From: Sphaerisporangium rubeum
GTDB lineage: Bacteria > Actinomycetota > Actinomycetes > Streptosporangiales > Streptosporangiaceae
Direction: 5' to 3'
Assembly (NCBI RefSeq): GCF_014207705.1
Contig: NZ_JACHIU010000001.1
Coordinates: 4,332,501 to 4,396,500 of the forward strand
DNA length: 64,000 bases
This document shows positions 6,993-36,739 of this stretch, piece after piece. The notes beneath the pieces are model-generated. The model saw nothing but the letters and a program-made list of their open reading frames with translations, did no database searches and was not told the origin of the DNA. Positions within the stretch are counted from its first letter, which is position 1. The number at the start of each line of letters is the position of its first letter. The translations under genes and the position numbers were made by a program.

Positions 6993-8165
6993 TCAGGAGA
7001 CGGCGACCGAGTACGCCGTGGTGTCGAGGCGGCCCTGGCCGACGAAGATCTCGGTGCCGGCCTGCACGCTGGTCAGGTACTTGGACGAGGACAGCCAGCC
7101 CCTGGAGGTCAGCACGTTGAGGAAGTCACGCAGGTTGAGCTGCACGCTGCTGGTGTTGCCGGTGCGGACGAACGAGTAGACCTCCCAGCCGACGTTGCCG
7201 CGCCACAGCTCCCAGGTGGTCCCGGCGACGGTCACGGTGGCCTGGCGGCTTCCCACCGGGGAGGCGCCGCCACCGCGGTAGGTCCAGATCATGACCTCGT
7301 CGGAGGGGTTCTCGGTATTGGGACTGGCGTTGGGGTGCAGCCACAGGTCATAGGCGACGTTGAGGGTGTTGGTGCCCCCCTGGAGGCTCAGGTTGTAGTT
7401 CCAGGTGGTGTTCACGTTGCGGCCCGCCGACACCTGCACCGGCAGCCCGCTCCCCGGGACCTTCCAGCCCCAGTGCCAGCCGAGCACCGCGCTGACGTAC
7501 GACTTCACCTGGCTCGGCGAGTTGCTCCACGTCCAGCTCGTGCCCCACGAGATCGTGTTGCCGTTGGTCGACCCCGACCAGACGCACTGGCGGCCGGTGC
7601 CGGAGCTCTGGCCCCAGAGGTTGTTGTTGAGCCAGTACTTGCCCATGGTGACCGAGTCGCCGGAGGTGCAGAGCTGGTTGCCGGGGGTGGACGGCGTGGG
7701 GGTGGGGGTGAAGGTGGGGCTGGCCGTGGCGGTGGGGGTGGGAGGCGGGGTCGGGTTCGGGTTGCCGCAGGCGACCCCGTTGAGGGTGAACGCCGTCGGC
7801 ACGGTGTTGGCGCTGCCGCTCACCGAGGCGTTGAACCCGAAGGTGGCGGTGGCGTACGTCCCGAGGCTGCCGTTGTAGCTCGCGTTGACCGCGGTGACCT
7901 GCGCGCCGCTCTGGGTCACCGTGGCTCCCCACGCCTGGGTGATCTGCTGGCCGTTGGCGAAGGACCAGCGCAGCGTCCAGGAGGAGATGGGGTCGCCGAG
8001 GTTGCGCACCGTGACGTCCCCGTTGAACCCTCCGGGCCACGAGGACGCGACCTTGTAGATGATCTGGCAGCCGGCGGCGGCACGTGCGCTCGTCGTGATC
8101 GACACCGCCGCCGCCAGGCCGACGACCAGAGCGGCCAGCACGGCGGCCGTTCTCCGGATGGACAT
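6993..8165 (-). CDS. Secreted cellulase: CBM2 plus GH12 endoglucanase
   Basis: Extracellular beta-1,4-endoglucanase. 390 residues from the ATG at 8165, preceded by GGAAGGAG. Signal peptide 1-31 (ARAA-A). CBM2 cellulose-binding module about 33-133 with exposed Trp W43, W63 and W79 and terminal Cys. Pro/Thr-rich linker about 135-162. GH12 domain about 165-390 with nucleophile E290 (DEVMIW) and acid/base E372 (AGTEIF). The order CBM2-linker-GH12 is the reverse of the GH12-CBM2 order seen in several Streptomyces cellulases. Single-gene transcript; no CebR-like TGGGAGCGCTCCCA box was seen upstream. Confidence 0.93.
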   Translation of the reverse strand: MSIRRTAAVLAALVVGLAAAVSITTSARAAAGCQIIYKVASSWPGGFNGDVTVRNLGDPISSWTLRWSFANGQQITQAWGATVTQSGAQVTAVNASYNGSLGTYATATFGFNASVSGSANTVPTAFTLNGVACGNPNPTPPPTPTATASPTFTPTPTPSTPGNQLCTSGDSVTMGKYWLNNNLWGQSSGTGRQCVWSGSTNGNTISWGTSWTWSNSPSQVKSYVSAVLGWHWGWKVPGSGLPVQVSAGRNVNTTWNYNLSLQGGTNTLNVAYDLWLHPNASPNTENPSDEVMIWTYRGGGASPVGSRQATVTVAGTTWELWRGNVGWEVYSFVRTGNTSSVQLNLRDFLNVLTSRGWLSSSKYLTSVQAGTEIFVGQGRLDTTAYSVAVS

Positions 8166-8270
8166 CGCCGACTCCTTCCACCCGCCGCTCGCCGCGCGCG
8201 GGGACATTGGAGATCCTCGTCGCCGCCGCCACGGCACCCGCGCAGGTCCCGCCACCGGACGTACGGCGAC

Positions 8271-8319
8271 CGTGGCGATTATGTTAGGTGTCCATCCAAA
8301 CTATTCTCATGTCGCCACG
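8271..8319. promoter_or_regulatory. Inverted repeat around the AT-rich cellulase promoter region
   Basis: CGTGGCGA (8271-8278) and TCGCCACG (8312-8319) are exact inverted repeats flanking a 33-bp A/T-rich stretch in the 240-bp gap upstream of the GH12 gene. This is the only AT-rich part of the gap, so it probably holds the promoter. A regulatory role is inferred. Confidence 0.35.
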
Positions 8320-8406
8320 AACCCCCTCACCGTCCGGCCCCCGGGTGACGTGCGGACGGCCCGCCTCCGCGCCGGAAAGTTTCACGGCGGTAGCGCCGGC
8401 ACCCCG

Positions 8407-9114
8407 TCACTCCCGCGCGGCGAGCGCGCCGTGGAGGAACAGGTCGACGATCTCGGCCGGGGTGATCTCGGCGACGTCGTGGCCGGTGAGGCGGCCCCGT
8501 GAGAACGCGGCGGACATGAAGACCTGCGCGCAGCGCTCAGGCGACAGGCGCAGCGCGTCCCGGTCGGGTTCGAAGAGATCGGTCAGCGCGTCACGGACGG
8601 CGGCCGTCGACGTCTCGCGGTCCAGCCCCGGCTGCCGTCCCTGCGGCGACGGCCGGTCGCGTCTCGGCGCGCGGCCGGACGCCATCAGCGCACCCGCCAC
8701 CGCACCCATGCGGTTCAGGTAGGCGCGCAGCGACTCGATGGCCTCGACGAGCCGGTCCGCGAGAGGCTGCTCCAGCGAGATCGACACGAGCTCGCGCAGC
8801 ACCCGGTCCGGGGACGCGGCCTCGGCCATGCAGGCGCCGAGCACCTCGTCCTTGTCCGCGAACACCCGGAAGATCGTCCCCTCGCCGATGCCGGCGGCCC
8901 GCGCGATCTGCGCGGTGGTCACCGCCGCGCCGTACTCGGCCACCAGCGGTAACGCCGATTGCACGATCATCTGCCTGCGTTCGTCGGCGCTCATCGCCGG
9001 TGCGCGGCGCCGCCTCTCCCCGCTCTCGTCCGGGGTCGGCTCCCCGGCCGCGCCGGTGGCCCTCGCGGCCCTCAGTGCCATGGCCTTGCCGGTGTCCTCG
9101 TCTGTGTTCATCAT
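8407..9114 (-). CDS. TetR-family transcriptional regulator
   Basis: DNA-binding repressor of 235 residues. After about 45 disordered residues comes a TetR HTH: VAEYGAAVTTAQIARAAGIGEGTIFRVFADKDEV. The C-terminal half is a ligand-binding helical bundle without recognisable specificity. The mRNA is probably leaderless: TTGACA at 9150-9145 and TAGAAT at 9126-9121 place +1 at about the A of the ATG at 9114. The operator palindrome sits over this promoter, so autorepression is likely. The target is not obvious; the divergent small gene at 9232 is the closest candidate. Confidence 0.9.
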   Translation of the reverse strand: MMNTDEDTGKAMALRAARATGAAGEPTPDESGERRRRAPAMSADERRQMIVQSALPLVAEYGAAVTTAQIARAAGIGEGTIFRVFADKDEVLGACMAEAASPDRVLRELVSISLEQPLADRLVEAIESLRAYLNRMGAVAGALMASGRAPRRDRPSPQGRQPGLDRETSTAAVRDALTDLFEPDRDALRLSPERCAQVFMSAAFSRGRLTGHDVAEITPAEIVDLFLHGALAARE

Positions 9115-9120
9115 GAGAGG

Positions 9121-9168
9121 ATTCTACGGAGTGAGCACTCACTCTGTCAATGAGTGAGTGCTCACTCC
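9121..9168. promoter_or_regulatory. TetR operator over a leaderless promoter
   Basis: GGAGTGAGCACTCACTC (9128-9144) and its exact reverse complement (9152-9168) flank TGTCAAT. Each arm is itself nearly palindromic. One arm exactly fills the space between the minus-strand -35 TTGACA (9150-9145) and the -10 TAGAAT (9126-9121). This is a textbook autorepression layout for the adjacent TetR gene. Confidence 0.85.
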
Positions 9169-9231
9169 ATTAGTCGACCACCTCGGCGGAACGCAGCCCA
9201 TATCGACTGATGAGCAGGCATACTGCGGAAT

Positions 9232-9411
9232 ATGAGCATGCGGGATGACGCGTCGGCCGAAGCCGGGGACGTGCGGTTCACCTCGTCCGGTGAGATCGAG
9301 GTCTTCGACGGCCGCCGCTGGAGGCGGTACGACGGGCTGCCGGCGGACACCGCGAACGACAACCGCGACGACCCCGAGACCGGCCTGGACCGTTCCTCCG
9401 GCGAGAAGTGA
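9232..9411 (+). CDS. 59-residue protein at the head of the NB-ARC/cyclase locus
   Basis: A short acidic protein not recognised. A central beta-like segment VRFTSSGEIEVFDGRRWRRYDGLP is followed by an Asp/Asn-rich tail (DTANDNRDDPETG). The ATG at 9232 lies 64 bp past the TetR operator, and the stop is 19 bp before the large NB-ARC gene. The reading frame, spacing and GC-biased third codon positions support a real gene. FDGxxWxxY-type small proteins are seen beside large NTPase conflict proteins in actinomycetes; that link is from memory and unverified. Confidence 0.6.
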   Translation: MSMRDDASAEAGDVRFTSSGEIEVFDGRRWRRYDGLPADTANDNRDDPETGLDRSSGEK

Positions 9412-9430
9412 CAGGCCCGGTGCCGGGCCG

Positions 9431-12400
9431 ATGGACCAGCCGGAGGGCACACGGCGGCTGCTGGACCTCGTCGAGGAGCCGCAGCGGTCCGCGCTGAAGG
9501 CGTGGATGCGCCACACACGCGTCGAGCTGCGGCTCCTGACGTGGCCGGGAAACGGGGACACCACGACAAGCCTGCTGGCCGCGTGCACGAAACCGCGCGA
9601 GGGCCCGCCGCTCAAAGTGATCGTGCAGCCGCACCCGGCCGGGCCGGAGCCGGGCCCGCTCGCGGGAGGCCCGCTCCATGGGCTTGAGCCGTTGTCGCGG
9701 CCGCTGGAGAAAGGCCTCGCGGCGTTCGCCGCCGTCGCGCCGGTCTGCGGGCAGATCATGACGCTGGCCCTGGCGGGGTGGAATCCCGGCGGGCCGCGCC
9801 TGGTGGAACGCACCGTGCCGGAGTTCCTGACCTCGGTGCTCGGTGACCGCGTGGCCGGCGGCGGCACGATCCACGAGTGGCTGCGCGACCCGGCGAACCA
9901 CGCGCCGCCCCTGCCAGGCGGCGGGCCGGTCCTGCCCGATCCGCTGATGCTGCTCGACGAGGCCGGGCCCGCCGCGACGATCAGGCTGCCGGTGCTCACC
10001 GGCAACGCGCACGGCGACCTGCGTCCCGGGAACGTCATCGTCTCCACGGACCCGGACGCCGACCCCCCGGAGCGGTGGTTCGCCGGCCTGTCGCGGTTCG
10101 GCACCGACGCGCCGCTGACGCACGACCCCCTGCACTTCGTCATGGCGATGATCGCGCCGTGCCTGCCGGGCCTGCCGCAACCGCAGCGGGTGGCGCTCGG
10201 GGAGTTCCTCATCGACCCGGCCGGCGGCCACCGGGCCCTGGTGCCGAACGGCCTCAGCGACCTCGTCACGAGCACGAGCCTCGCCACCTCCGCGTGGGCC
10301 CGCTCGGTGAAGAGGACCGGCGAGTGGGAGGACCTCCACCTGCCGTCCGTGGTGGCCTGCGCCTTGCTGTACGCCGGCCGCGCCGTCCTCCCGGCCGAGG
10401 ACCGCCTCTGGTTCACCTGGCTCGCCGGCCGGGCCGCCGCCGCGTTCCTCGCCTCCCGTGAACCTCTCACCTCCGGCGTCCCCGCCGCCGGCGCCGCGGC
10501 CCTCCCGCCGCGGGCTCCCCTTCCCGCGGCGGACGTCCCGGTGGCCGGGTCCGCGGCCCCCGCCGGCGGCTTCCACACCGGCGTCCAGATCGGCGACGCG
10601 TTCTACCAGGCCCAGACGATCCACGTCCATCCCCGCGAGCATCCCCCGCGGGCCTTCGGCGCGGAGGTGCCGGGAGCCGCGTGGCCCGACCCCCGGGTGC
10701 CGGAGTCCGGCGCGCCGCGGCGGGTGCGGTACTTCGTCGGACGGGAACGGGAACTGACCGAGCTGCGGGGCTTGATGGAGGCCGGACGGGCCTCGGCGTC
10801 GGTAGTGGCGGTGCACGGCATGCCGGGCATGGGGAAGACGCAGTTCGCACTGGAGTACGCACGCAGGTTCTCCGCCGATTACTCGCGGATGTGGTGGATC
10901 GCGGCCGGACGGCCCGAGTTGCTCGGCGAGCAGTTCGGCGGCATGGCCACGGCGCTCGGGCTGGCCGTCCAGGGGGACATGCGCACGGTGTGCGCCGTGC
11001 TGTTCGACGCGCTGCGTGATCACGGCCGCTGGCTGCTGGTGTTCGACGACGCGCCGGACGCCGAGGCCGTGCAGGCCTACGTCCCCGCGAGCGACGCTCT
11101 CCACGTGCTGATCACCTCACGCAATCCCGAGTGGTCCGCGCTGGCCGCGCCGCTGGCCCTCGGCCCGCTCGCGGCCGAGGAGTCGCGCGAGCTGATGTCG
11201 GCCCTGCTCCACGAGCCCGGCACCACGCGGGCCGCGCCGATCGCCGAGAGGCTCGGCCATCTGCCGCTCGCGGTGGCGCAGACAGCGCTGTTCCTGCGAG
11301 GAGCGCCGCTCGATCCCGAGGAGTACGCCGAGGAGCTCGGCTCGCGGACCGCCGGCGCGCTCGACACCAAGCCCGTGCCGGGGTACGGCCGGACGCTCGC
11401 GGCCGTGTGGACGCTGAGCATGGACTCCCTGGCCAGGAGCAGCCCCGCCGCGGCGGAACTGCTGCGGGCCTGCGCGTACCTCGGTGACGCGCCGGTGCCG
11501 TGGAACCTGCTGGCCGCCGCGGCGGCCGACCTGCCCGAGCCGCTGCGCGCCGTGGCGGCGAGCCCGTTGCGCCTCGCCGAAGCGGCCACGGACGCGGCCC
11601 GTCTCGGCCTGCTGCGCATCGAAGGGACGTCGGTGCGCGTGCACGGCCTGCTCCAGGCGTTCCTGCGTGACACGGATCCGGGGCCCGTACCCGACCTGCG
11701 GCCGGCGCTGGCCCGCGCGCACCCCGGCGACCCGCGCGACCCGTGCTCCTGGCCCGGGTACGGAACGGTGCTGCCGCACGCGCTGGCACTCGACCTGCCG
11801 GGGTCGGACGACCCCGCCTGCCACCGGCTGCACCTGGACGCGTTGCGCTACCTCGCGGTGCGCGGCGACACCCGTACCGTGCTGCGCCTCGCGACCGAGG
11901 TGCGCGACCGCTGGCGTGACACCCTCGGGCCGGACGCCGAGCCGGTGCTCGACGCCGCCGGCCTGCTGTCCCGCGCACATCACGACCTCGGCGCGCACCG
12001 CGAGGCGCTGGTGCTGGACCAGGAGGTGTACGACCGGCGCGGCCGGCTGCTCGGCCCCGGCGACCCGGCCACGCTGACCGCCGGCCACAACCTGGCGGTC
12101 GACCTGTCGGCGCTGGCGCGCGGCGGCGACGCGCCGGCCGGGATCGCCGCGCGTGCCGTCGAGCTGCTGGAGACGGTGGTGGACGCGCGCCGCGAGGTCC
12201 TCGGCCCCCGCCATCCCGAGACACTGCGATCGGTGCACAACCTGGCCGCGGAACTGCACGCCGAGGGCCGGCGCGACCAGGCGAGGGAGCTCTGCGAGGA
12301 GGCGCTGTCCGGCCTGACCGAGGCGCTGGAGCCCGACCACCCGGACGTCCTGCGTTCGGCGCACCTGCTCGCGCTGCTGCTCGCCGGCGACGAGCCGGAA

Positions 12401-12862
12401 CGGGCCCGCCGCCTCAACGAGGACACGCTGCGCCGTCGTGCCAAGGTGCTCGGCCCCCGCCACCTGGACACGTTGCGTTCCGCGCACAGCCACGCGCGCG
12501 ACCTGCTGCTGGCGGGCTTCCCGGTGCTCGCGGCCGGCCAGGCCAAGGAGACGTGGCTGGCGGTGTGCGCGACGGCCGGTGAGGACCACCCCGAGGCCCT
12601 GCGCGCGGCCGGCCTGACGGCACGCGCGCTGCGCGCCACCGGCGACCACGCCGGCGCGTACCGCCTCAGTGAGGACACCTACCGCCGCAGCGTGCGCCTG
12701 CTCGGCGAGGACCACATCGAGACCCTGCGCGCCGCCGACCAGTACGCCACCGACCTGCGCACCGCCGGCGAACTCGCGACGGCCGGCGACCTCACCCGCC
12801 GCACCACCGCGGCACTGGCCCGGCTGGTGCGCAGCCGGCGTCCGTCCCCGCCGGACGCCTGA
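9431..12862 (+). CDS. Large signalling NTPase: pseudokinase, shared tag, NB-ARC, TPR
   Basis: 1143 residues, cytoplasmic. Residues about 20-360 resemble an aminoglycoside-phosphotransferase/kinase fold. The catalytic loop H194-G-D196-L-R-P-G-N201 is kept, but the expected D of the DFG-like strand is Gly (FAGLSRFGTDAPLTHDP), so it is probably a pseudokinase. A Pro/Ala linker leads to the tag GVQIGDAFYQAQTIHVH (384-400), also found in the cyclase-like protein downstream. NB-ARC/STAND NTPase about 425-700: Walker A G463-MPGMGK-T470, Walker B LLVFDDAP, then VLITSRNPEW. C-terminal about 330 residues are kinesin-light-chain-type TPRs (LGPRHPETLRSVHNLA repeats). The architecture fits STAND sensors of conflict or developmental signalling systems. 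The ATG at 9431 has a weak ribosome site; coupling to the small upstream gene is likely. Confidence 0.85.
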   Translation: MDQPEGTRRLLDLVEEPQRSALKAWMRHTRVELRLLTWPGNGDTTTSLLAACTKPREGPPLKVIVQPHPAGPEPGPLAGGPLHGLEPLSRPLEKGLAAFAAVAPVCGQIMTLALAGWNPGGPRLVERTVPEFLTSVLGDRVAGGGTIHEWLRDPANHAPPLPGGGPVLPDPLMLLDEAGPAATIRLPVLTGNAHGDLRPGNVIVSTDPDADPPERWFAGLSRFGTDAPLTHDPLHFVMAMIAPCLPGLPQPQRVALGEFLIDPAGGHRALVPNGLSDLVTSTSLATSAWARSVKRTGEWEDLHLPSVVACALLYAGRAVLPAEDRLWFTWLAGRAAAAFLASREPLTSGVPAAGAAALPPRAPLPAADVPVAGSAAPAGGFHTGVQIGDAFYQAQTIHVHPREHPPRAFGAEVPGAAWPDPRVPESGAPRRVRYFVGRERELTELRGLMEAGRASASVVAVHGMPGMGKTQFALEYARRFSADYSRMWWIAAGRPELLGEQFGGMATALGLAVQGDMRTVCAVLFDALRDHGRWLLVFDDAPDAEAVQAYVPASDALHVLITSRNPEWSALAAPLALGPLAAEESRELMSALLHEPGTTRAAPIAERLGHLPLAVAQTALFLRGAPLDPEEYAEELGSRTAGALDTKPVPGYGRTLAAVWTLSMDSLARSSPAAAELLRACAYLGDAPVPWNLLAAAAADLPEPLRAVAASPLRLAEAATDAARLGLLRIEGTSVRVHGLLQAFLRDTDPGPVPDLRPALARAHPGDPRDPCSWPGYGTVLPHALALDLPGSDDPACHRLHLDALRYLAVRGDTRTVLRLATEVRDRWRDTLGPDAEPVLDAAGLLSRAHHDLGAHREALVLDQEVYDRRGRLLGPGDPATLTAGHNLAVDLSALARGGDAPAGIAARAVELLETVVDARREVLGPRHPETLRSVHNLAAELHAEGRRDQARELCEEALSGLTEALEPDHPDVLRSAHLLALLLAGDEPERARRLNEDTLRRRAKVLGPRHLDTLRSAHSHARDLLLAGFPVLAAGQAKETWLAVCATAGEDHPEALRAAGLTARALRATGDHAGAYRLSEDTYRRSVRLLGEDHIETLRAADQYATDLRTAGELATAGDLTRRTTAALARLVRSRRPSPPDA

Positions 12863-13201
12863 CACCGGTCACGATCCGGTGTGCGTGTACGGCACCCAGA
12901 GGCTCGGCCGTGAGAGGTATCCGGCTCTGAGCGGCCGGATCACCAGACCCAGCGTGCGGGCCGCGCCACCGGGTCGAACCGTCCGCCGGCGGTGAGCCTC
13001 TGCCGGTCAGCCGGGTCGGTGCCGTTCCTGGAGTCGTGCCACCGCCTTATCCCGGGTTTCCGTCCATGGGACGGAAACAACCTCTCCGTACGCCTGACCG
13101 TCATTTCTATTATTTATACAAGGTGCGATCTTCCCGCTGACTGTCATACTTGCCCCATCACGGCGGGGACGCCGTCGGCGGCCTATGGGGGAAGAACGTT
13201 C
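12863..13201 (+). promoter_or_regulatory. Intergenic region with hairpins and AT-rich promoter of the cyclase-like gene
   Basis: No gene. A short hairpin, CACCGG/CCGGTG, lies just past the NB-ARC stop. A perfect 10-bp inverted repeat GTTTCCGTCC-ATG-GGACGGAAAC is at 13056-13078. An A/T-rich island at 13101-13125 with TATACA at 13115-13120 is the likely -10. The cyclase-like gene may therefore have its own promoter. Confidence 0.45.
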
Positions 13202-14548
13202 ATGGCCGGTTCCTCCTGTCCCGTGGAAATCCGTACGCGAATCGTGCCGGGAGGTCCGGTGGCCGCACGTCCTCAACTGGTCGACCGGTTCGTCGTCGGG
13301 GTGGACGTCAGCGGGTACAGCTCCCGGACCACCCGCAGGCAGCTCGAGGTGCAGCAAGACCTGGACGAGATCCTCACCGCGGCGGCGGAGCGGTCGGGGA
13401 TGGACAGGAGCAGGTGGGTCCGCCAGATGAGCGGGGACGGCGAGCTGGCCGAGTTGCCGGAGGGGACCGATCCGGTCGCGGTGGTGGGCCGGTGGGTGGC
13501 CGAGCTCGACGAGTTGCTGCGCGACCACAACGACGGTCACGCGCCGGGGAACGCGATACGGCTGCGGGTGGCCATGCACACCGATGTGCTGGCACGCAGC
13601 AGTCTCGGCGCGGCCGGGCCCGCGCTCGTCGTGGTGAGCCGCCTGCTCGACTCCGCGCCGGTGCGCGCGGCACTGGCGGCCGCGCCGAACGCGTCCCTCG
13701 CGTTGATCGTCTCGGACGCCGTGTACCGCAAGGTGGTGCTGTCGGAGTTCGGCGGCCTGCGACCCGCCGCCTTCCGCGAGGCCGGGGTCGACCTGCCTGG
13801 CAAGGGCTTCCACGAGCTCGCCTACATCCACGTCCCCGGCTTCCCGCTCGCGGGCGATCGCGGGGACCCGCCTGGCGGGACGACCGCCGCACCCGGCGGG
13901 CCCTCCCCGTACGACGGCCGTCCGTCCGGCGGGCCTGGCGGTCCCGCCGCGCCGCCGCCGCAAGCCGCCGCCGGACCGGCCGCGCCACCGTCATGGGACG
14001 CCGCCGGACGAGCCGCGCCACCGTCACGGGACGCCGGCGGCCCGGCCGCGTTGTTCAGTGTCGGCGCGCAGTACGGCGAGACGTTCTACCAGGCGCAGAC
14101 CATCCAGATCCACGCGCCGGCCGAGCGTCCCGACCCGTTCGGCCTCGGTCTGAGCGCCTTGCGCGCGCGGCGGTACGCGGCGGCGCGGCGGCGCATGGCC
14201 GAGGCGCGCGAGCTGGACCCCGGCGACCCGCGGGTGTGTTACTACCTGGCGCTGGCGATGCTCGGCGGACACCGGCCGCACCTGCACCACCGCGCGTCCG
14301 TCGAGGAGATCACGTCGCTGCTCGACGGCGCGCGTGACCGGCTGCCGGAGGCCGGAGCGCTGTGGTGCCTGGTGCTGGAGGACCACCGCATGAGCTGGAC
14401 GCCGCACACGGCGGTCCCCCCTGAGCTGGTCCGGCTGGTGGACACGGTGCCGCCTGACCGGGCCGCCGAGATCACCGGCCAGTTCACGGCCGAGGAGAAC
14501 CAGGTGTGGCGGCTGCTGGCGGCGCGAGCGGAGCGGAGCGCCGGGTGA
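13202..14548 (+). CDS. Nucleotidyl-cyclase-like domain, shared tag and TPR protein
   Basis: 448 residues. N-terminal class III cyclase-like domain about 28-213: both metal Asp positions are kept (D35 in VVGVDVSGYS, D79 in QMSGDGE), as is an Arg (R147 in VVVSRLLDS). The usual transition-state Asn is Val, so activity may be altered or lost. A Gly/Pro/Ala linker about 214-285 follows. The tag G288-AQYGETFYQAQTIQI-H304 matches the tag in the NB-ARC protein upstream at 11 of 17 positions. C-terminal TPR-like helices (LRARRYAAARRRMAEARELDPGDPRVCYYLALAM). GGGGGA precedes the ATG at 13202; a GTG at about 13259 with GGGAGG is an alternative. The 3' end overlaps the convergent Rrf2 gene by 65 bp. Confidence 0.8.
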   Translation: MAGSSCPVEIRTRIVPGGPVAARPQLVDRFVVGVDVSGYSSRTTRRQLEVQQDLDEILTAAAERSGMDRSRWVRQMSGDGELAELPEGTDPVAVVGRWVAELDELLRDHNDGHAPGNAIRLRVAMHTDVLARSSLGAAGPALVVVSRLLDSAPVRAALAAAPNASLALIVSDAVYRKVVLSEFGGLRPAAFREAGVDLPGKGFHELAYIHVPGFPLAGDRGDPPGGTTAAPGGPSPYDGRPSGGPGGPAAPPPQAAAGPAAPPSWDAAGRAAPPSRDAGGPAALFSVGAQYGETFYQAQTIQIHAPAERPDPFGLGLSALRARRYAAARRRMAEARELDPGDPRVCYYLALAMLGGHRPHLHHRASVEEITSLLDGARDRLPEAGALWCLVLEDHRMSWTPHTAVPPELVRLVDTVPPDRAAEITGQFTAEENQVWRLLAARAERSAG

Positions 14549-14918
14549 TGTCGGCGAGGGTGACGTCCGACAGCAGGGCCTGTTCGTGGTCGCGCAGTGC
14601 GTCCCAGACGTCGGCGAGCGGGCCCGCCACGCCGGGGAAGCCGCCGTGGTCGCCGCCTTCCGGTACGCCTTCGACGATGCGCACGATGTCGGCCAGGCTG
14701 ATCTGGTCGGGAGCGCGGGCCAGCCAGTAGCCGCCGTCGGGGCCGCGGCGGCTGCGCAGCAGGCCGGCTCGGCGCAGTTGCAGCAGGATGTTGTCCAGGA
14801 ACCTGCGGGGGATGCCCTGGGCCTCGGCGATCTTGTCGGCCGGCAGGGGGCCCGGCGAGGCGGCGGCCAGTTCGGCCGCCGCTCGCAGGGCGTACTGTGT
14901 CCTGGCGGAGATCCGCAT
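14484..14918 (-). CDS. Rrf2-family regulator without cysteines
   Basis: 144-residue winged-helix protein: MRISARTQYALRAAAELA start, recognition region IAEAQGIPRRFLDNILLQLRRAGLL, wing SRRGPDGGYWLAR. All three are diagnostic for Rrf2. There is no Cys at all, so unlike NsrR or IscR it cannot carry an Fe-S cluster. In the same family CymR also lacks a cluster and controls cysteine metabolism. It sits 13 bp after the ABC permease gene as last gene of a sulfonate-type operon, so control of sulfur acquisition is likely. ATG 14918 is chosen over longer frames. Confidence 0.88.
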   Translation of the reverse strand: MRISARTQYALRAAAELAAASPGPLPADKIAEAQGIPRRFLDNILLQLRRAGLLRSRRGPDGGYWLARAPDQISLADIVRIVEGVPEGGDHGGFPGVAGPLADVWDALRDHEQALLSDVTLADITRRSAPLAPPAAATPGSPRP

Positions 14919-14931
14919 CGCCGCCGGGCCT

Positions 14932-15810
14932 TCAGTTGGTGACCTGGTGCAGTCCCCAGCGGCGGCGTAGCGCGTTGTCGGCCGCACCGAAGACCCGGTC
15001 GACCACGATTCCGATCACCAGGATGATGATCATGGTGGCGAGCAGGCCGGGTGAGTCGGCGAGTTCGCGCGCGAAGTGGAGCTGCTCGCCGAGCGAGGGA
15101 CGGTTGGCGATGATGACGAGCAGTTCGCCGGCCATCAGGGAGCGCCAGGCGAAGGCCCAGCCCTGCTTGAGGCCGGCGAGGAACGACGGCAGCGACGCCG
15201 GCAGGATGACGTGCCGGTACAGCGACAGCCGGCGGAACCCGAGCATGTGACCCGCGCGCAGCAGGATCGGCGGGGTGTAGTCGACTCCGGCGATCAGGCC
15301 GTTGGCGATGGACGGCGCGGCGCCGAGCACGACGACGAACAGGATCGCGCTCTCGGTGAGGCCGAACAGCAGGATGGCGAGCGGGAACCACGCGATGGAC
15401 GGCATGGTCTGCAGGCCGGTGATGAGCGAGCCGACCGCGCGGCGCAGCGGCCCGATGCGCGACACCAGCGCGCCGACGACCAGGCCCACCGCGATCGCGA
15501 GCGCGAAGCCGACGATGGCGCGGCGCATGGTGACGGCGACCGCCTGGTAGAACTCGGCCTCCCCGAGCCGGTGCGCGAGGTCGGTCAGCGTGGTGACGGG
15601 CCCGGCGAAGACGTACTCGGGCCACCAGCCGGCCCACACCACGCCTTGCCAGATGACGAGCACGATGGCGATGGCCGACAGCACCGGCCACGCCGCGGCC
15701 CAGGCGCGGGTGGGGAGGGCCGTCCTACGCGGTGCCACGAGCTCCAGCGCGTCGAGGCCGGCGAGTTGCCGCGCGTGCGCGTCGGCCGCGCGGGTCTCAG
15801 TTGCCGCCAT
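14932..15810 (-). CDS. ssuC: Sulfonate/nitrate-type ABC transporter permease
   Basis: Inner-membrane permease of the SsuC/TauC/NrtB family, 292 residues with six hydrophobic segments. The cytoplasmic EAA-like loop RAGHMLGFRRLSLYRHVILPASLPSFLAGLKQGWAFAW contacts the ATPase. It overlaps the ATPase gene by 14 bp. The substrate could be a sulfonate, a sulfate ester or taurine; the symbol is by family and context. Confidence 0.85.
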   Translation of the reverse strand: MAATETRAADAHARQLAGLDALELVAPRRTALPTRAWAAAWPVLSAIAIVLVIWQGVVWAGWWPEYVFAGPVTTLTDLAHRLGEAEFYQAVAVTMRRAIVGFALAIAVGLVVGALVSRIGPLRRAVGSLITGLQTMPSIAWFPLAILLFGLTESAILFVVVLGAAPSIANGLIAGVDYTPPILLRAGHMLGFRRLSLYRHVILPASLPSFLAGLKQGWAFAWRSLMAGELLVIIANRPSLGEQLHFARELADSPGLLATMIIILVIGIVVDRVFGAADNALRRRWGLHQVTN

Positions 15811-16591
15811 GGCGCATGACCTCCTGCTTCAGCCGTTCGGTGATCTGAGCCGCCTGCCGTCCCACCTCGGGTGACTCGCCGCGCCGCGGCCGCGGCAACG
15901 TGACGCGGAAGTCCTCGACGACCCGGCCGGGACGGCTGGACAGCAGCACCACGCGGTCACCGAGCCGTACGGCCTCGCGCACGTTGTGGGTGACGAACAG
16001 CACCGCGAGGCCGCGTTCGCGCCAGATGCGCTCCAGTTCGTCGTGCAGCAGGTCACGGGTCATGGCGTCCAGCGCGCCGAACGGCTCGTCCATGAGCAGC
16101 ACGTCGGCGTCCTGGGCCAGGGCCCTGGCGAGCGCGACGCGCTGGCGCATGCCGCCGGACAGCTCGTGCGGACGTTTGGCGCCGAAGTCGCCGAGGTGCA
16201 CGACGCGCAGGAACTCCTGCGCGCGCTCGCGGCGCTCGGCCTTGGCGAGGCCTTTGGCGCGCAGCGCCATCTCGACGTTCGCCGACACCGTCAGCCAGGG
16301 GAACAGCGCGGGTTCCTGGAACATCAGGGCCACCCGTTTGCGATCCACCTCGATGGTCCCGGCCGTCGGCCGGTCCAGCCCGGCGACCAGCGACAGCAGG
16401 GTGCTCTTGCCGCACCCGGACGCGCCGAGCAGGCAGACGAACTCGCCGGGGGCCACGTCCAGCGACACCTCGTCCAGGGCGAGCAGCCCGTTCCTGCCCT
16501 GACCGTAGATCTTGGAGACGGCCGAAAGCCGGATCGCGGGGTTGTCACCCTCGACCCGGCCGCCGGCCTGCTCCACAAGCGGAGCAGTCAT
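15797..16591 (-). CDS. ssuB: Sulfonate/nitrate-type ABC transporter ATPase
   Basis: 264-residue ATPase. Walker A GASGCGKST, Q-loop FQEPALFPW, signature LSGGMRQR, Walker B DVLLMDEPFGALD and switch His in VTHN. AGGAGG precedes the ATG at 16591, 24 bp after the binding-protein gene. It energises the permease and binding protein of the same operon. Confidence 0.92.
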   Translation of the reverse strand: MTAPLVEQAGGRVEGDNPAIRLSAVSKIYGQGRNGLLALDEVSLDVAPGEFVCLLGASGCGKSTLLSLVAGLDRPTAGTIEVDRKRVALMFQEPALFPWLTVSANVEMALRAKGLAKAERRERAQEFLRVVHLGDFGAKRPHELSGGMRQRVALARALAQDADVLLMDEPFGALDAMTRDLLHDELERIWRERGLAVLFVTHNVREAVRLGDRVVLLSSRPGRVVEDFRVTLPRPRRGESPEVGRQAAQITERLKQEVMRHGGN

Positions 16592-28975: not shown

Positions 28976-29050
<75 letters not shown>

Positions 29051-29057
29051 AGACGAG

Positions 29058-29105
29058 AAGGTCTGTCGAGCTGAGGGAAACCTCAGGTCAACAGACCTTT
29101 CTTTA
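29058..29105. terminator. Terminator between tRNA-Pro and int
   Basis: Nested stem: AAGGTCTGT (29058-29066) pairs with ACAGACCTT (29091-29099), with an inner CTGAGG-GAAA-CCTCAG hairpin and a T-rich tail TTTCTTTAT. It is one of the few canonical U-tailed terminators here and could serve both tRNA and int. A near copy lies at about 47903-47945. Confidence 0.85.
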
Positions 29106-29129
29106 TGTCGGATCACCGAATGAGCGAGG

Positions 29130-30341
29130 CTACACGGCCCGCAGCCGGGGACCATTTGGGGACCGGCGAGCCGACAGGTGAGCGCTCAACGCTTCGCCGG
29201 CGTCAGCGATCGACCGCGCATCGGGGTGCAAGTAACGCTGCGTCGTGGTCAACGACCCGTGACCAGCGATTTTCCTGAGGACATGGACCGGAACCCCGGC
29301 ATCCGCCATCCAGGTAAGCCCGGTGTGCCGGAGGTCATGACGCCGAAGATGCTCATAGCCGAGCCTCGCCACCACGTCATCCCAATGGGTCGCATCCCGA
29401 AGCACCGCGGTCGTGATCCGTCCACCGCGAGGACCGGTGAACAGCCGCGCCGACTTGTCCGAGCCGATCACGTCGAGGCGACGCGCCACCAGCTCCCGAA
29501 CTTCCGCGATGAGCGGGACGGTTCGAGCCCGCTTGCCTTTGGTGCCCTTATCGACCAGCCCGCCGGGACTCGGCGTGGTCTGCCGGCGCACCGTCCACGT
29601 CCACGAAACAGGGTCGATATCCCCGACCCGCACTCCCGAGACCTCCCCAATGCGTCCGGCGGTGCAAGCGGCGAAGATGACCACCTCACCCCATCCCGAG
29701 TAGTTGTCCGCCGACCGCTCAACCAACGCCGCCGCGAGCCGAGTGAGAGCTTCCCAATCGGGCAACGCCAGAGCACGAGGGTTGTCCAACTCGTCTTCCG
29801 CTCGCTGATACTCACGTCGCCAGCCAGTCACCCGAGCCGGATTGCGATCAATGACGCCGTCCCTGACCGCCTGCTCCATGACTCGCACGAGGACCGCCAA
29901 GCTGTTCTTGACCGTGGACTGACCGCACTCATCGGCGATCCAAGCATGCACCGCCCGATCAACAGCACCATTGGTGATCAGCCGAATCGGAAGGTGCCCC
30001 AAGGCCGGGACCACGCGTTTGCGCCAGCCCGCCATGTACGGATCCAGGGTCTTGCTCTCCAACCCGCGCAGCGCGAGGGACATCACCCGTTCCCCGAACT
30101 CGGCGAGCGTGGCCGTAGCCGAGATCGGATCAACACCGCCCCGAGCAGCGTCCTCTATCTCTTTGATCCACGCTTGGGCAGCTTCGGAGGTGTCCACTGA
30201 TTCAGACTTCGACTTCCGCCGCTTGGTCACCGGATCAATCCAGCGCACACGCGCGCGGTACGGGCGAGGTCTGCCGGCACGGAACTCCACATCCGACGAC
30301 AACGTGACGCCAAGCGGCAAGGCTTGCTGAAGGCTTCCCAT
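29130..30341 (-). CDS. int: Tyrosine recombinase (AICE integrase)
   Basis: 403 residues; integrates and excises the element at tRNA-Pro. N-terminal AP2-like/SAM-like DNA-binding part about 20-180, catalytic domain about 190-380. R230 (CTAGRIGEVSG), H335-D-L-R338 (RRHDLRHTGLTW), H361 (GHGSLTTTQ) and nucleophile Y370 (QRYLHPD). The ATG at 30341 shares one base with the xis stop (TGATG). The 3' end faces attL as in pSAM2-type elements. A decayed copy of its 3' end lies at about 47.9-48.1 kb. Confidence 0.95.
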   Translation of the reverse strand: MGSLQQALPLGVTLSSDVEFRAGRPRPYRARVRWIDPVTKRRKSKSESVDTSEAAQAWIKEIEDAARGGVDPISATATLAEFGERVMSLALRGLESKTLDPYMAGWRKRVVPALGHLPIRLITNGAVDRAVHAWIADECGQSTVKNSLAVLVRVMEQAVRDGVIDRNPARVTGWRREYQRAEDELDNPRALALPDWEALTRLAAALVERSADNYSGWGEVVIFAACTAGRIGEVSGVRVGDIDPVSWTWTVRRQTTPSPGGLVDKGTKGKRARTVPLIAEVRELVARRLDVIGSDKSARLFTGPRGGRITTAVLRDATHWDDVVARLGYEHLRRHDLRHTGLTWMADAGVPVHVLRKIAGHGSLTTTQRYLHPDARSIADAGEALSAHLSARRSPNGPRLRAV

Positions 30342-30586
30342 CAGGCCACCTGTGCAGGGTCGATGCGGCGGCTTTCCAGCCATCGCCGTACGTCGCGCAC
30401 GTCGTAGAGCGTCACCCGCGACGAGAGCTGAACGAACGGCGGTCCCTGAATCGGCCGACCCGTGCGCCATCGCCGAAGCGTCGAAGGATCGACCTTGAGC
30501 ATCTGGGCTAATTCCTCCGTCGTGTACCAGCCATCCACGGACGGACTCAGCGGCTCATTCGGGGAGACCGTCTCGACTTTCGACAT
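30341..30586 (-). CDS. xis: Excisionase-like HTH protein
   Basis: 81 residues, MerR/excisionase-type winged HTH: GWYTTEELAQMLKVDPSTLRRWRTGRPIQGPPF and LYDVRDVRRWLESRRI. ATG 30586 is preferred, with AGGAG seven bases upstream; an upstream TTG is too close to that site. Coupled to int, whose direction of recombination it probably controls. Confidence 0.88.
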   Translation of the reverse strand: MSKVETVSPNEPLSPSVDGWYTTEELAQMLKVDPSTLRRWRTGRPIQGPPFVQLSSRVTLYDVRDVRRWLESRRIDPAQVA

Positions 30587-32036
30587 TCGCAAGCTCCTTT
30601 CTGTGGTGATTTGACGTTCCCGACGAATCCGCGAATCCCAGAGCCAGCGCGGACTCTCCCGGCGTGTAGCCCTGTCCGGCGTAGCTCCAGTGCGCGAGGA
30701 CCAGCGTGCTTCCGGGTGTGCGGCCCTGTCGCTCGGCGAGCTGGAGTTCCCGGAAGTGCGCGCGTGCCTGTCGCAGGGCGGTCAAGGTGGTGGAGTAGGC
30801 GCGGGACCGTGTCGAGAAGTGCCCGCGGAAGCCGAGCATGTGTGCCCACTTGCGCAGCCTCAGTTCCACCAGGTCGGGGTACGTCAGCGGGTCCCCGAGG
30901 TTCCAAGCGGTACGGATCAGGCGTTCGGCGTGCGCGGTGACGCCGAGGTGTCGCAGGCGAGGCAGGTCGGCGGCTTTGACGCGCCGGTTAAGGGTGCCGG
31001 AAGTCTCGGCGGCCTTGGTGGCGTACTTGGCGACGTATCCGGCGACCTTCTGCTCTGACAACTCATCCCCGCCGGCCAGCTCACCCGCTTCGATGGGCCG
31101 GACGTCGACTTGCTCGCCCCAGCTCAGCACGGTCGTGGCCTGTCCCAGGTCGGGAGCGTCGAGGTGAACGGCGGCGACGGCCGAGCGGATCGCGCCGTCC
31201 AGGAGTGCGACGGTGGCCCAGTGAGGCGGGGGCAGGGTCGCGCCGGATTCGTCGCGTCCGTCGAGCCGTATGACGGCGTGGAAGTGGACCACGCCGCGTG
31301 CCTGGTACTCGGCGACCTTGGCGAACGACACCCGCACGGTCCGGTTGAACGTGGAGCGGCTCAGCCCGGACAGCCCGGCCAGGTGACGGCGTAGGTAGAT
31401 GGTGAACCGGCGCCACAGGTCCCCGGCGTGTGCGTTCCACAGCACGTGCCCGGTGTAGTCGTAGGTGCCGGGGTCGATGGGCTGACCGAGCAGGGGTTCA
31501 TCGGCGGTGTGCCGCTGGAAGCAGGCCGGTCCGTTGCGGCGCGGGTGACACACCACCGGCCGGCCGTCCTTGCCGGGACCGCGATGCACGGCCCCGAACG
31601 ATGGCGCGGTCAGCGTGGCGAGCACGCGGGGATGGGTGCGCACGGCATCGGGGACGCCTTTACCGCCGAGCAGCCCGGCGCGGATGAGGTGGTAGGTGTC
31701 GGCCCGGTAGGTCGCGGCGCAGGCGGGACAGCGAGACGCACGCCGGTTGCCGCATCGGATCATGAGTTGCCCGTGCGGTTCGTGCCGGGTGGAGTACTCG
31801 CCGAGCACCTGACCGGTGTCGGGGTCGAGCGTGACGCTGTGGCCGACCAGGCGCACCGGTTCGGCGCAGCCGCCCAGACGCGCGACCTGTTCGAGCCAGC
31901 GGGACAGGTCTTTGCCCGAGTGGCGGGCCAGGTCACGAATGACCGGCCCGACCAGCTCGGCGAGCGGCACGGGAGCGCTCAAGTGGTGATTCCTCCTTAC
32001 CTCGGTGACGTGGGGGTGGGGGTGGTTGACGGTCAT
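30555..32036 (-). CDS. repSA: RepSA-like rolling-circle replication initiator
   Basis: 493 residues from ATG 32036. Zinc-type Cys (C95, C103-P-A-C106) precede the metal motif H251-F-H253 (ARGVVHFHAVIRLDG) of HUH nickases; candidate nucleophile tyrosines Y334 and Y338 lie in VAGYVAKYATKAAE. Similar to pSAM2 RepSA, which starts rolling-circle replication of the excised circle. The ATG forms an ATGA overlap with the methyltransferase gene, but a TTG at 31982 has a stronger AAGGAGG site eight bases upstream and would give 475 residues. The 3' end overlaps xis by 32 bp. Confidence 0.88.
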   Translation of the reverse strand: MTVNHPHPHVTEVRRNHHLSAPVPLAELVGPVIRDLARHSGKDLSRWLEQVARLGGCAEPVRLVGHSVTLDPDTGQVLGEYSTRHEPHGQLMIRCGNRRASRCPACAATYRADTYHLIRAGLLGGKGVPDAVRTHPRVLATLTAPSFGAVHRGPGKDGRPVVCHPRRNGPACFQRHTADEPLLGQPIDPGTYDYTGHVLWNAHAGDLWRRFTIYLRRHLAGLSGLSRSTFNRTVRVSFAKVAEYQARGVVHFHAVIRLDGRDESGATLPPPHWATVALLDGAIRSAVAAVHLDAPDLGQATTVLSWGEQVDVRPIEAGELAGGDELSEQKVAGYVAKYATKAAETSGTLNRRVKAADLPRLRHLGVTAHAERLIRTAWNLGDPLTYPDLVELRLRKWAHMLGFRGHFSTRSRAYSTTLTALRQARAHFRELQLAERQGRTPGSTLVLAHWSYAGQGYTPGESALALGFADSSGTSNHHRKELANVESRDGLPE

Positions 32037-32758
32037 GGCGTGGCCAGGCCGGGGAGTTCGAACTGCACGGGTGCGTCGCCGGCCAGGGCCTTGATCAGGT
32101 GGTGGCCGATATGGCGGGTGTAGGCCGGGGGGATCGCTTCGGCGAGTTCCTTGCGGACGTCGGTCCAGGTGATGCCCATGGCCTGCTGCCATTGGGCGAT
32201 GCTGCCTTTGCCGCCGCCTTGGCCGTAGACGGCCAGGTAGGGGCCGTGGAACCACTCGCCGTGCCGCATGCCGGCCACACGGCCCCGGTGGGCAGGGTGG
32301 TCGGGTTGCGGGATGTGGACGCCGCCGAGTTCGAAGAAGCGATGCCGGATGACCGACAGGGCGAACATCTCGCCGCACAGCCGCAGGTCTTTGCGAACCG
32401 GGGCACCGGCGACGTTCTCGATGACGTACGGTCGGCCGACGTGGCGCAGCGCGTCGCGGACGGCGGGGATCAGTTGCGGGTAGGTGCGGCCTTTGTTGGT
32501 GCCGGCGGTGAGGGTGCATCCGGCCTGACACGGCGGTGAGGCGTGGATAACGTCGAAGGTGTGCCCGTGTTCGCGGACGAACTCGACCGCGTCGCCCTGG
32601 TGGAAGGCGTCGCCGATGTAGTTGGGCTGTGGCCGCAGGTCCACCCCGGTCACGTGGAAACCGGCCTGCTGGTAGCCGCGGGTCGCCCCGCCGGCGCAGC
32701 AGAACAGATCCAGAAGCCGAGGCCGGCCCGCACGGTCGGTGACATCGCAGGCGGCCAT
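32033..32758 (-). CDS. DNA (cytosine-5) methyltransferase, short form
   Basis: 241 residues. Motif I LLDLFCCAGGATRGYQQAGF, motif IV with catalytic C77 (HASPPCQAGC) and motif VI YVIENVAGAP are present. The usual C-terminal target-recognition domain and motif X are abbreviated (ITWTDVRKELAEAIPPAYTRHIG). Element-borne orphan enzymes may mask host restriction sites during transfer. It overlaps the small zinc-protein gene upstream by one base and rep downstream by four. Confidence 0.88.
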   Translation of the reverse strand: MAACDVTDRAGRPRLLDLFCCAGGATRGYQQAGFHVTGVDLRPQPNYIGDAFHQGDAVEFVREHGHTFDVIHASPPCQAGCTLTAGTNKGRTYPQLIPAVRDALRHVGRPYVIENVAGAPVRKDLRLCGEMFALSVIRHRFFELGGVHIPQPDHPAHRGRVAGMRHGEWFHGPYLAVYGQGGGKGSIAQWQQAMGITWTDVRKELAEAIPPAYTRHIGHHLIKALAGDAPVQFELPGLATP

Positions 32759-32949
32759 CACAGGCCCCCGCCGGTGGTCTCGTTCTCGGCGCAGACCTTG
32801 TGACACGGGCTTCCGTTGTCGTCGAGCAGGAAGGTGAGCCTGCGGCAGATGCGGCACGGCCGACGACGATCGCCGTTCCAGTGGTTGACCGCTTTGGGGT
32901 TGCGTCGCTTGTTCCCGCTCCAGTCCAGCCCGCGCGGCGTGCCGGTCAT
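32758..32949 (-). CDS. 63-residue zinc-finger-like AICE protein
   Basis: MTGTPRGLDWSGNKRRNPKA is followed by C-R-I-C...C-H-K-V-C, two Cys pairs that could hold zinc. Not recognised beyond this. ATG 32949 overlaps the stop of the next small gene (ATGA) and its own stop overlaps the methyltransferase start (TGATG), so it belongs to a tight translational chain. Possibly a DNA-binding accessory of methylation or replication; inferred. Confidence 0.6.
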   Translation of the reverse strand: MTGTPRGLDWSGNKRRNPKAVNHWNGDRRRPCRICRRLTFLLDDNGSPCHKVCAENETTGGGL

Positions 32950-33101
32950 CGGCCGCACCGTCCGCAGCGGGTACGGATACGGGGATTGACCGCGCCGCAG
33001 CGACACACCCAGGTCGAGGCGGTACCGGGGGGCAGCCACGGCGCGAGGGTGGTGGTGTTGTGTCGGTGGAGGTGGAGCGCGGTTAACGCGGGATCGCGCA
33101 T
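32946..33101 (-). CDS. 51-residue zinc-ribbon AICE protein
   Basis: Very short gene with a strong AAAGGAG site before the ATG at 33101. C-terminal CRCGAVNPRIRTRCGRCGR forms a compact Cys-rich ribbon; the N-terminus is HLHRHN-rich. Codon 6 is TTA, rare in actinomycetes and read by the bldA tRNA. Overlaps the downstream 63-residue gene by four bases. Function unknown. Confidence 0.6.
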   Translation of the reverse strand: MRDPALTALHLHRHNTTTLAPWLPPGTASTWVCRCGAVNPRIRTRCGRCGR

Positions 33102-33200
33102 ACTGGTGTCTCCTTTGCGAGCAGCGGAGGAGACGCCTCCCCGGTGCGGCGTTGGCCGGCAAGCTCTGGCCGCCCGGTGGAGGCGTCGATTCGAGGTTGG

Positions 33201-33347
33201 TCAGCGGCGAGGTCTGACAGTGGGCTTGGCCGGGAGCCGGACCGGTGCCGGAGGGTTGTCGGCGGGCTTGCGCTTGGGCTTGTTGTCGCGGAGCTGGTTG
33301 TAGGCGATCAGGTCCATGGCGTAGCCCTGTGCGTCCTTGCGGGTCAT
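33201..33347 (-). CDS. 48-residue basic AICE protein
   Basis: MTRKDAQGYAMDLIAYNQLRD followed by a Lys/Arg/Pro-rich tail (KPKRKPADNPPAPVRLPAKP). Starts inside the stop of the 47-residue gene (ATGA overlap). Unrecognised; the tail suggests nucleic-acid contact. Confidence 0.5.
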   Translation of the reverse strand: MTRKDAQGYAMDLIAYNQLRDNKPKRKPADNPPAPVRLPAKPTVRPRR

Positions 33348-33487
33348 CGCTTGGCCGCCTTCCCGGTGGCCTGCTGCTTCTGGTCGGCCTGCTGTGCGTC
33401 GTAGGCGTCGCGGACCGAGGTGGGCTCGCCGCCGGGCCAGATGCCGGGGTGGCCGGGGTCGATGTCGATCGTGATCACGTGCGACAC
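33344..33487 (-). CDS. 47-residue AICE protein
   Basis: GTG start at 33487 with AAAGGAG upstream. SHVITIDIDPGHPGIWPGGEPTSVRDAYDAQQ then a Gln/Lys-rich end. Unrecognised. Part of the chain of tiny overlapping genes between rep and the DUF2637 gene. Confidence 0.5.
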   Translation of the reverse strand: MSHVITIDIDPGHPGIWPGGEPTSVRDAYDAQQADQKQQATGKAAKR

Positions 33488-33507
33488 GGGGGTTTCTCCT
33501 TTGCTGG

Positions 33508-33648
33508 TCAGGGGTGGTCGGGGGTGGGGTGGTTGTCGATGCCGGTTCCGTTGCAGTCGCGGCAGCAGTCGTCGTCGGGGTCGATTCCGGTTCCGTAGCA
33601 GGTGGCGCACATGTAGGCGTGGACCGGGACGTCAAGGGGGTCCGTCAC
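33508..33648 (-). CDS. 46-residue DnaJ-type zinc-finger AICE protein
   Basis: GTG start at 33648 preceded by AAAGGAG. Contains two C-x-x-C-x-G-x-G repeats, CATCYGTGI and CRDCNGTGI, the knuckles of DnaJ-like zinc fingers, each flanked by acidic residues. Likely binds one zinc. Role unknown; similar tiny proteins occur in actinomycete mobile elements. Confidence 0.6.
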   Translation of the reverse strand: MTDPLDVPVHAYMCATCYGTGIDPDDDCCRDCNGTGIDNHPTPDHP

Positions 33649-36736: not shown

Positions 36737-36739
36737 CCC

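Follow-up and report, generated by a model that had tools for sequence, protein, structure and literature searches.

Mainly in filamentous actinobacteria and cyanobacteria, a NOD-like receptor (NLR) and an effector can share a short motif, placed at the N-terminus of the receptor and at the C-terminus of the effector; the effector of these bacterial amyloid signalling sequence (BASS) pairs is Bell or, less often, CHAT or TIR (PMC7889193). Amyloid-like aggregation has been seen with a BASS3 peptide of Frankia (PMC8086366). Coupling through effector-associated domains (EADs) is described by Kaur et al. (2020; PMC7159879), alongside cyclic nucleoside monophosphate (cNMP) cyclases, inactive kinases and AP-ATPase/TPR proteins. 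In another study cNMP cyclases are fused to those EADs or bDLD3 that iSTAND2 also carries (PMC8195603). We analysed a three-gene locus of Sphaerisporangium rubeum, whose genome is one 7.5 Mb contig. The locus lies in a stretch of 64,000 nucleotides (positions 4,332,501 to 4,396,500 of NZ_JACHIU010000001.1), called the window below, and encodes a small protein, a large NLR-like protein with a kinase-type N-terminal domain, and a protein predicted to carry a class III nucleotide cyclase fold (Table 1). The two larger proteins share a 17-residue motif, and we consider it reasonably probable that the locus is a receptor–effector signalling pair of the actinomycete conflict or regulated-cell-death type, which by analogy may work like a BASS or EAD pair.

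The locus resembles the BASS NLR–Bell pairs (Dyrka et al. 2020) in its adjoining NLR-like and effector genes with one common short motif, in its occurrence in a filamentous actinomycete and, in part, in where that motif lies, on the N-terminal side of the switch in the NLR and on the C-terminal side of the functional domain in the effector. It differs in its effector, which is class III cyclase-like and not Bell, CHAT or TIR (PMC7889193), and in that neither window protein has the motif at its end: the pseudokinase or the cyclase domain stands before it and NB-ARC or TPRs after it. With the ternary EAD/VMAP systems (Kaur et al. 2020, PMC7159879) it has in common that copies of a small element occur both on a core protein and on an effector encoded by an adjacent gene; those systems also hold cNMP cyclases, inactive and APH-type kinases, AP-ATPase/TPR proteins, GUN4 and Band-7. 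The window motif, however, is far shorter than a domain, and, unlike in VMAP systems, no MoxR or vWA domain was found among the flanking proteins scanned. Coupling of a cyclase to a STAND protein via matched elements is also seen with iSTAND2, where, in contrast, the matched element is a domain (EAD or death-like) and the other core components differ (PMC8195603). In the literature searched we found no report of an NLR–cyclase pairing through a short motif; the original BASS paper (Dyrka et al. 2020) may contain one. PADLOC returned no family for any of the three window proteins (E ≤ 1). The locus is like Pycsar, the pyrimidine cyclase antiphage system, in that a class III cyclase is the proposed maker of a second messenger in immunity, and differs from it in having an NLR as the partner of the cyclase and in the absence of a PADLOC match.

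The shared motif and cyclase/partner pairs in other loci

The receptor copy of the motif (GVQIGDAFYQAQTIHVH) and the effector copy (GAQYGETFYQAQTIQIH) are identical at 11 of 17 residues, and in both proteins the motif lies behind an N-terminal domain and a linker rich in Pro, Ala and Gly, ahead of NB-ARC or the TPRs. The best ungapped 17-mer between the two proteins scored 65, a value reached in 0 of 300 whole-protein shuffles (maximum 52). A search of the S. rubeum genome with the cyclase-like protein hit the large protein at its motif region (E 0.0027). A DNA pattern for the core FYQAQTI was found in one of 296 class genomes, that of S. rubeum, where it occurs twice, once per gene; the 295 other class genomes had none, and the reversed control gave 0. 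At the DNA level the two copies form a 51-nucleotide direct repeat, 80% identical, with synonymous codon differences at 3 of the 11 identical residues. Both an old duplication kept by selection and convergence on one motif would fit these data. The shared motif is the strongest evidence, as read from sequence, that the large protein and the cyclase-like protein may work together.

We found relatives of the cyclase-like protein (E 1e-15) in 8 of 11 genus genomes, S. rubeum included. A wider search with a three-sequence domain alignment yielded 78 cyclase loci from actinomycetes (numbered with an L below), where the whole protein against genome contigs had given 31 pattern matches and no relative. 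Phage records gave no cyclase match; five plasmid records carried the cyclase domain, at 33-38% identity. Among 79 distinct loci (the window, L019, L020 and 76 others), the adjoining downstream gene was taken as the partner in 29. These genes encode 593-856 residues and start from 96 nucleotides before to 10 nucleotides after the end of the cyclase gene, the starts being approximate because genes in fetched DNA were called with a simple GC-frame script. Pfam gave weak matches only for eight partners, with nSTAND3 in three and HEAT in four. One partner, modelled from a 23-member alignment (predicted local distance difference test, pLDDT, 82.3), showed a P-loop-like domain and a long helical repeat, and its first Foldseek matches were SAMD9, AVAST5, importin and Avs4. 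The TM-scores were all low, and the label STAND-like, which the model suggests, is therefore fair but not firm. PADLOC, run on seven related proteins, matched two of them, the canonical partners of L107 and L035, weakly to PDC-S73 (E 0.02-0.03); it gave no match for the three cyclase proteins tried (those of the window, L107 and L019).

Motif matching between cyclase and partner extends to many of these loci. When cyclase tails were compared with partner N-termini in 36 pairs, the cognate mean was 39.7 against 27.0 ± 1.1 for permuted pairs, and 0 of 20,000 permutations reached it; in a per-locus shuffle test 22 of the 36 pairs had p < 0.02, and the window ranked first. This set consisted of 29 pairs, the window and six same-genus loci chosen for a downstream open reading frame (ORF) above 600 residues; in it the matches of L024, L026b and L031 had been spotted by eye beforehand, and for the window the compared parts of tail and partner had been chosen around the motif, which was already known. 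The 29 pairs without the window gave the same result (40.1 against 28.5 ± 1.3, 0 of 20,000 permutations). They come from 39 loci whose downstream ORF encodes 250 residues or more (37 loci, plus L075 and L101); L034, L038, L048, L054, L069, L080, L089, L097, L098 and L111 were dropped for an ORF that was short, distant or seemingly of another kind, and L037 and L039, which duplicate L019 and L020, were not used.

The matching motif differs by locus: VRADKVVGGDEITYL goes with VRAQKVVGGDEITYI in L077, and INNVSGAVDARGAVFGI with INNFFAGVQAQGAVFGM in L106. S. rubeum itself has a second cyclase/NTPase pair (L031, 9871-12904) with a motif of its own, NAPVRIRMDVR / DGPVTINPEVR. The window and L031 pairs have cognate scores of 65 and 39 and cross scores of 21 and 17, and they are the two matched pairs in S. 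rubeum that the test supports; a third, L030, had seemed matched by eye and is not supported. In effectors such as those of L019 and L107 the motif lies within about 25 residues of the C-terminal end, and some motifs contain GDGN/QN elements (L042).

Some cyclase relatives are fused to other domains. L038 (9965-11236) is a GUN4 fusion (40.5 bits); L034 (9938-12821) is a GUN4-like fusion just under the cut-off (27.2 bits against 29.2), with a Band-7 gene directly after it; and L097 (9965-11044) has a C-terminal TIR by Pfam, L076 (9995-11041) being similar by eye. Such fusions to GUN4 or TIR fit conflict systems. Both L097 and L076 have a second, more distant cyclase-like ORF nearby. In Saccharothrix, the cyclase-like genes of L058, L074, L081, L086 and L094 have tails of 3-16 residues; this tail-less branch shares its next gene, a GNAT acetyltransferase by appearance, and has no motif partner.

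Domains of the cyclase-like and NLR-like proteins

Pfam gave no cyclase match for the third protein alone. A profile of 78 members, however, matched class III cyclases (3mr7, E 2.7e-6; Ma1120, E 5.3e-5). The AlphaFold model of the domain had a pLDDT of 95.7, and Foldseek returned Ma1120 as its best match (E 7.9e-9), with 133 matches at E ≤ 0.001; among the 50 matches listed, every one was a nucleotide cyclase. As modelled, the third protein thus carries a class III cyclase fold. D10, G53, D54, G55, R97 and R122 are invariant in 78 of 78 sequences; by function, both metal Asps, the GDG and the transition-state Arg are invariant. L098 and L111, which matched in part only, were excluded from the alignment, as were L019/L020, represented there by L037/L039, and any second copy with a weaker match.

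The N-terminal domain of the large protein retains the kinase motif HGDLRPGN (10010-10033), and its DFG equivalent, FAGLSRF (10079-10099), has no Asp. The stretch that holds the beta3 Lys in six aligned relatives is a gap in the window domain; LKVIVQPH, placed there by eye, carries Gln. The DFG Asp is retained in 7 of 7 relatives and the Lys in the 5 of 5 that include the N-lobe; one relative, L124, has HAD in place of HGD. Four relatives match TCAD9 under the cut-off (E 2.6e-8 to 0.038; the best at 33.9 bits), and the window domain does so at E 0.16, with 11.6 bits against a cut-off of 40. A Protein Data Bank (PDB) sequence search with the kinase-type profile matched three protein kinases, all weakly (E ≥ 0.39). 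In a profile comparison with APH the match probability was 21-27% (P about 0.001; controls 0.2%), the alignment falling on the Lys region or on the HGD loop. Because the DFG Asp is lost, the Lys stretch gapped or changed and HGDLRPGN kept, we take the domain to be a degenerate member of a kinase-type family, a fold assignment resting on motifs and weak profile matches. Relatives turned up in 1 of the 79 other genomes searched in the family and in 6 of 196 others in the class; the number of candidates scored in each genome was capped, which makes both counts lower bounds, and the genome draws may overlap. They sit in other architectures: among four scanned, two carry a fused TIR and a third a P-loop NTPase, and an NB-ARC match was also present in four of the seven stretches fetched around them (one stretch of just 4.3 kb). 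Plasmid records gave no relative of the domain, nor did viral contigs, where the kinase-type search produced 22 pattern matches.

In the remainder of the large protein Pfam detects AAA_16 (E 1.2e-8), NB-ARC (E 2.8e-7) and TPR_12 (E 6.2e-25). A sequence-only reading of the window had described three adjoining genes, encoding a 59-residue protein, a pseudokinase–NB-ARC–TPR protein with HGD kept and the DFG Asp lost, and a cyclase-like protein with TPRs. The ORFs are present (9232-9411, 9431-12862 and 12992-14548, all on the plus strand), the motif states hold, NB-ARC and the TPRs of the large protein are clear by Pfam, and the kinase-type assignment is supported by the motifs, the sub-threshold TCAD9 matches of the relatives and the weak profile matches. 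Among the results that would speak against it, that reading had named an unrelated fold of the cyclase-like domain, and the model came out as a class III cyclase fold; the TPRs of the third protein stand on weaker ground (Table 1).

Proposed signalling and its alternatives

The domain families suggest how a receptor–effector pair could signal. A trigger would be sensed by the TPRs and would release the NB-ARC switch, whereupon the NLR would oligomerise, as expected from the NB-ARC/TPR families. The oligomers would gather many copies of the 17-residue motif, held between the inert pseudokinase and NB-ARC; the former probably serves as a scaffold, or else as a regulatory or decoy domain. Gathered motifs might then bind the matching motif of the cyclase protein, or template it into the same beta or amyloid-like form, the motif being possibly an amyloid-forming tag. 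Class III cyclases work as dimers, and clustering would therefore pair the cyclase domains and start a cyclic nucleotide or other metal- and NTP-dependent output, which may arrest or kill the cell. A defence role, an amyloid state and cyclase activity of the window pair are what we infer. The boldest form of the proposal, in which prion-like amyloid templating by the NLR switches on the nucleotide cyclase, turning an amyloid into a diffusible cyclic-nucleotide signal, with several channels per actinomycete cell separated by motif pairs, we regard as unlikely.

Several results weigh against a motif-coupled cyclase of this kind. In the per-locus shuffle test 14 of the 36 pairs fail (L021, L022, L030, L035, L036, L043, L052, L067, L068, L075, L088, L101, L109 and L110); L030 is in S. 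rubeum, and its cyclase tail has no match to its neighbour. The permutation result partly reflects the shared ancestry of related loci, and it overstates independence because such loci share motifs; the match between two non-homologous proteins of one locus is, as judged from sequence, not explained by this ancestry. A homologous full trio was not found elsewhere among the genomes searched. Resemblance of the motif to BASS3 is seen on the NLR side alone and is only suggestive: GVQIGD of the NLR copy compares with the BASS3 peptide GVQVGDGN at p 0.0075 (uncorrected, one of 72 tests, with one BASS3 peptide out of 10 BASS families), an unrelated stretch of L022 resembles that peptide equally well, and the effector copy shows no resemblance (p 0.22). 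In the cyclase domain, 76 of 78 sequences have Val or Ile instead of the Asn of the catalytic Asn-Arg pair, and one has Asn; at the place next to a conserved Gly where the adenine-binding Asp should stand, 26 of 78 have Asp and the window has Pro. Synthesis of cyclic AMP and specificity for ATP are therefore doubtful. The place of the adenine-specifying Lys is Gln in the window (alignment read by eye).

The same residues bear on the alternative that the domain makes no cyclic nucleotide and is an NTP- or metal-binding regulator or scaffold, another protein being the effector; we put its chance a little below even. The replaced Asn and the poorly conserved substrate-specifying places argue for it, as do several vWA-fused cNMP cyclases of related systems that are reported to be catalytically inactive (Kaur et al., PMC7159879). 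Against it, both metal Asps, the GDG and the Arg are invariant throughout the alignment, and Rv1900c has His in place of the Asn, from which the authors conclude that the Asn is dispensable (PMC4886424). Asn is replaced by Ile in other cyclase-like proteins, from Mycobacteria and elsewhere, which keep the Arg and in most cases the metal Asps (PMC4886424); the likeness to the window protein is by description only, and the available text mentions no NLR or motif pairing. Since the metal Asps and the Arg are invariant and Rv1900c is without the Asn, catalytic activity of the window protein is possible, with the doubt about ATP unchanged.

A second alternative retains the NLR–cyclase pairing and dispenses with amyloid. 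The motif copies would form a small beta-hairpin or strand-exchange contact and thereby a stoichiometric NLR–cyclase complex, as proposed for EADs. We find this plausible, if somewhat improbable. The same matched-motif data (the score of 65 and the 36-pair test) would be expected from it, and the model of the canonical partner has two short strands near the motif, at low confidence. EADs, however, are longer than this motif, whose roughly 17-20 residues, linker-like sequence, size and position are those of BASS motifs, and the GDGN/QN elements of some members, such as L042, also speak against docking alone.

Membership of an FxSxx-COOH-type maturation or signalling locus (NF040586), with the large protein as the TPR component, is very improbable. 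The NB-ARC–TPR module is above the curated cut-off of NCBIfam FxSxx_TPR (525 bits against 300), and among its matches in the genus, which are 29-36% identical, several adjoin radical SAM genes (one by Pfam, the rest by eye). The match, however, covers positions 2-566 of 830 in the profile, and the large protein is, by eye, unlike those relatives in its N-terminal part. The 59-residue protein ends in SSGEK, without an FxSxx end, and no radical SAM gene was found among the flanking proteins scanned, and we therefore rejected this assignment. Equally hard to credit is that the genes are unconnected neighbours sharing a recent duplication or a coincidence: the 80% identical direct repeat and the finding of the trio in S. 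rubeum alone would suit it, but the shuffles, the common reading frame, the synonymous changes within the repeat, the like placement of both copies with respect to the domains and the recurrence of this arrangement, with other motifs, in many other loci speak against it.

If the receptor–effector reading is right, the locus would represent a path, amenable to testing, by which a bacterial NLR leads to a second messenger, and it would belong to an uncharacterised family of cyclase/NTPase pairs whose wiring, the motif, is readable from sequence. Insulated motif pairs would be ready-made orthogonal signalling tags and would bear on how amyloid signalling (RHIM, PP, BASS3) arose. With the metal site of the cyclase kept and the usual Asn replaced, its product would be new information.

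Gene layout and genomic setting

Table 1. Features of the three-gene locus, in window coordinates
Feature	Position	Strand	Basis or remark
Small protein gene	9232-9411	+	59 residues, VRFTSSGEIEVFDGRRWRRYDGLP core; 19 nucleotides upstream of the NLR gene
NLR-like protein gene	9431-12862	+	1143 residues; pseudokinase, linker, shared motif, NB-ARC, TPR
TCAD9-like kinase-type N-domain	9431-10465, end approximate	+	Alignment with six relatives; sub-cut-off TCAD9; weak APH profile match
Shared motif, receptor copy	10580-10630	+	GVQIGDAFYQAQTIHVH
NB-ARC NTPase domain	10733-11350, end approximate	+	Pfam AAA_16, NB-ARC; P-loop GMPGMGKT 10817-10840
TPR repeats, kinesin-light-chain type	12128-12859, limits approximate	+	Pfam TPR_12/TPR_10; PDB kinesin light chain matches
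Cyclase-like effector gene	13202-14548	+	448 residues; start inferred; ORF open from 12992
Class III nucleotide-cyclase-like domain	13277-13846	+	AlphaFold, Foldseek, residue tallies in 78 sequences
Cyclase residues	Metal Asp codon 13304-13306; GDG 13433-13441; Arg 13640-13642	+	
Shared motif, effector copy	14063-14113	+	GAQYGETFYQAQTIQIH
Weak TPR-like repeats, C-terminal to motif	14138-14263	+	Pfam TPR_19 E 0.0018, below cut-off

The large ORF is open from 9245, and its length is counted from the ATG at 9431. For the third gene we place the start at the ATG at 13202, because the preceding 210 nucleotides are partly AT-rich and GGGGGAAG stands directly upstream. Relatives of the 59-residue protein were found in 3 of 149 other family genomes, one of them adjoining a CHAT-domain gene, and the protein is therefore probably a genuine gene. 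These relatives (L154, 9955-10107; L155, 9879-10019; L156, 4253-4459) have a core like GEIEVFDGxxW; those of L154 and L156 are followed by similar proteins of 236 residues, membrane-spanning by appearance.

The combination of a pseudokinase NLR with a TPR-bearing cyclase occurs in S. rubeum only, among the genomes searched. Of 10 sister genomes, 8 showed the Rrf2-ABC block that adjoins the locus. Beyond Rrf2, the gene called first is Ser/Thr-kinase-like in seven of these eight (read by eye) and another gene of the shared block in L158, and among up to six genes beyond Rrf2 (1.8 kb only in L157) none matches a window gene at E 1e-20. Synteny therefore breaks at the locus, as it does for accessory regions. 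The sequence-only reading had looked to conservation of the neighbourhood, which the trio does not show: relatives of the N-domain are rare and in other architectures, and the two nearest cyclases within the genus have a partner of another kind, with HEAT repeats. Its general placing among STAND conflict systems is supported, as are the domains on which it based a signalling function; the trio as a conserved unit is not, and the motif linking the two proteins had been overlooked.

The flanking proteins scanned were luciferase-like, GH12, TetR, Rrf2, ABC permease and ATPase, NMT1 and TauD. Rfam gave no match over 8000-16000. A perfect 17-bp inverted repeat, GGAGTGAGCACTCACTC / GAGTGAGTGCTCACTCC, lies at 9128-9168 between the TetR gene (8407-9114, minus strand) and the locus and overlaps a promoter-like site on the minus strand; it is probably a TetR operator and may possibly also touch the three-gene locus. 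Farther downstream, the region 28976-38467 resembles an integrative and conjugative element of actinomycetes. It begins with a tRNA-Pro (28976-29050), followed by genes for a phage-type integrase (29130-30470), a pSAM2-type RepSA (30555-32531), a DUF2637 protein (34027-34902) and an FtsK/SpoIIIE protein (35558-36736), all on the minus strand, and for a GntR/UTRA regulator on the plus strand (37718-38467).

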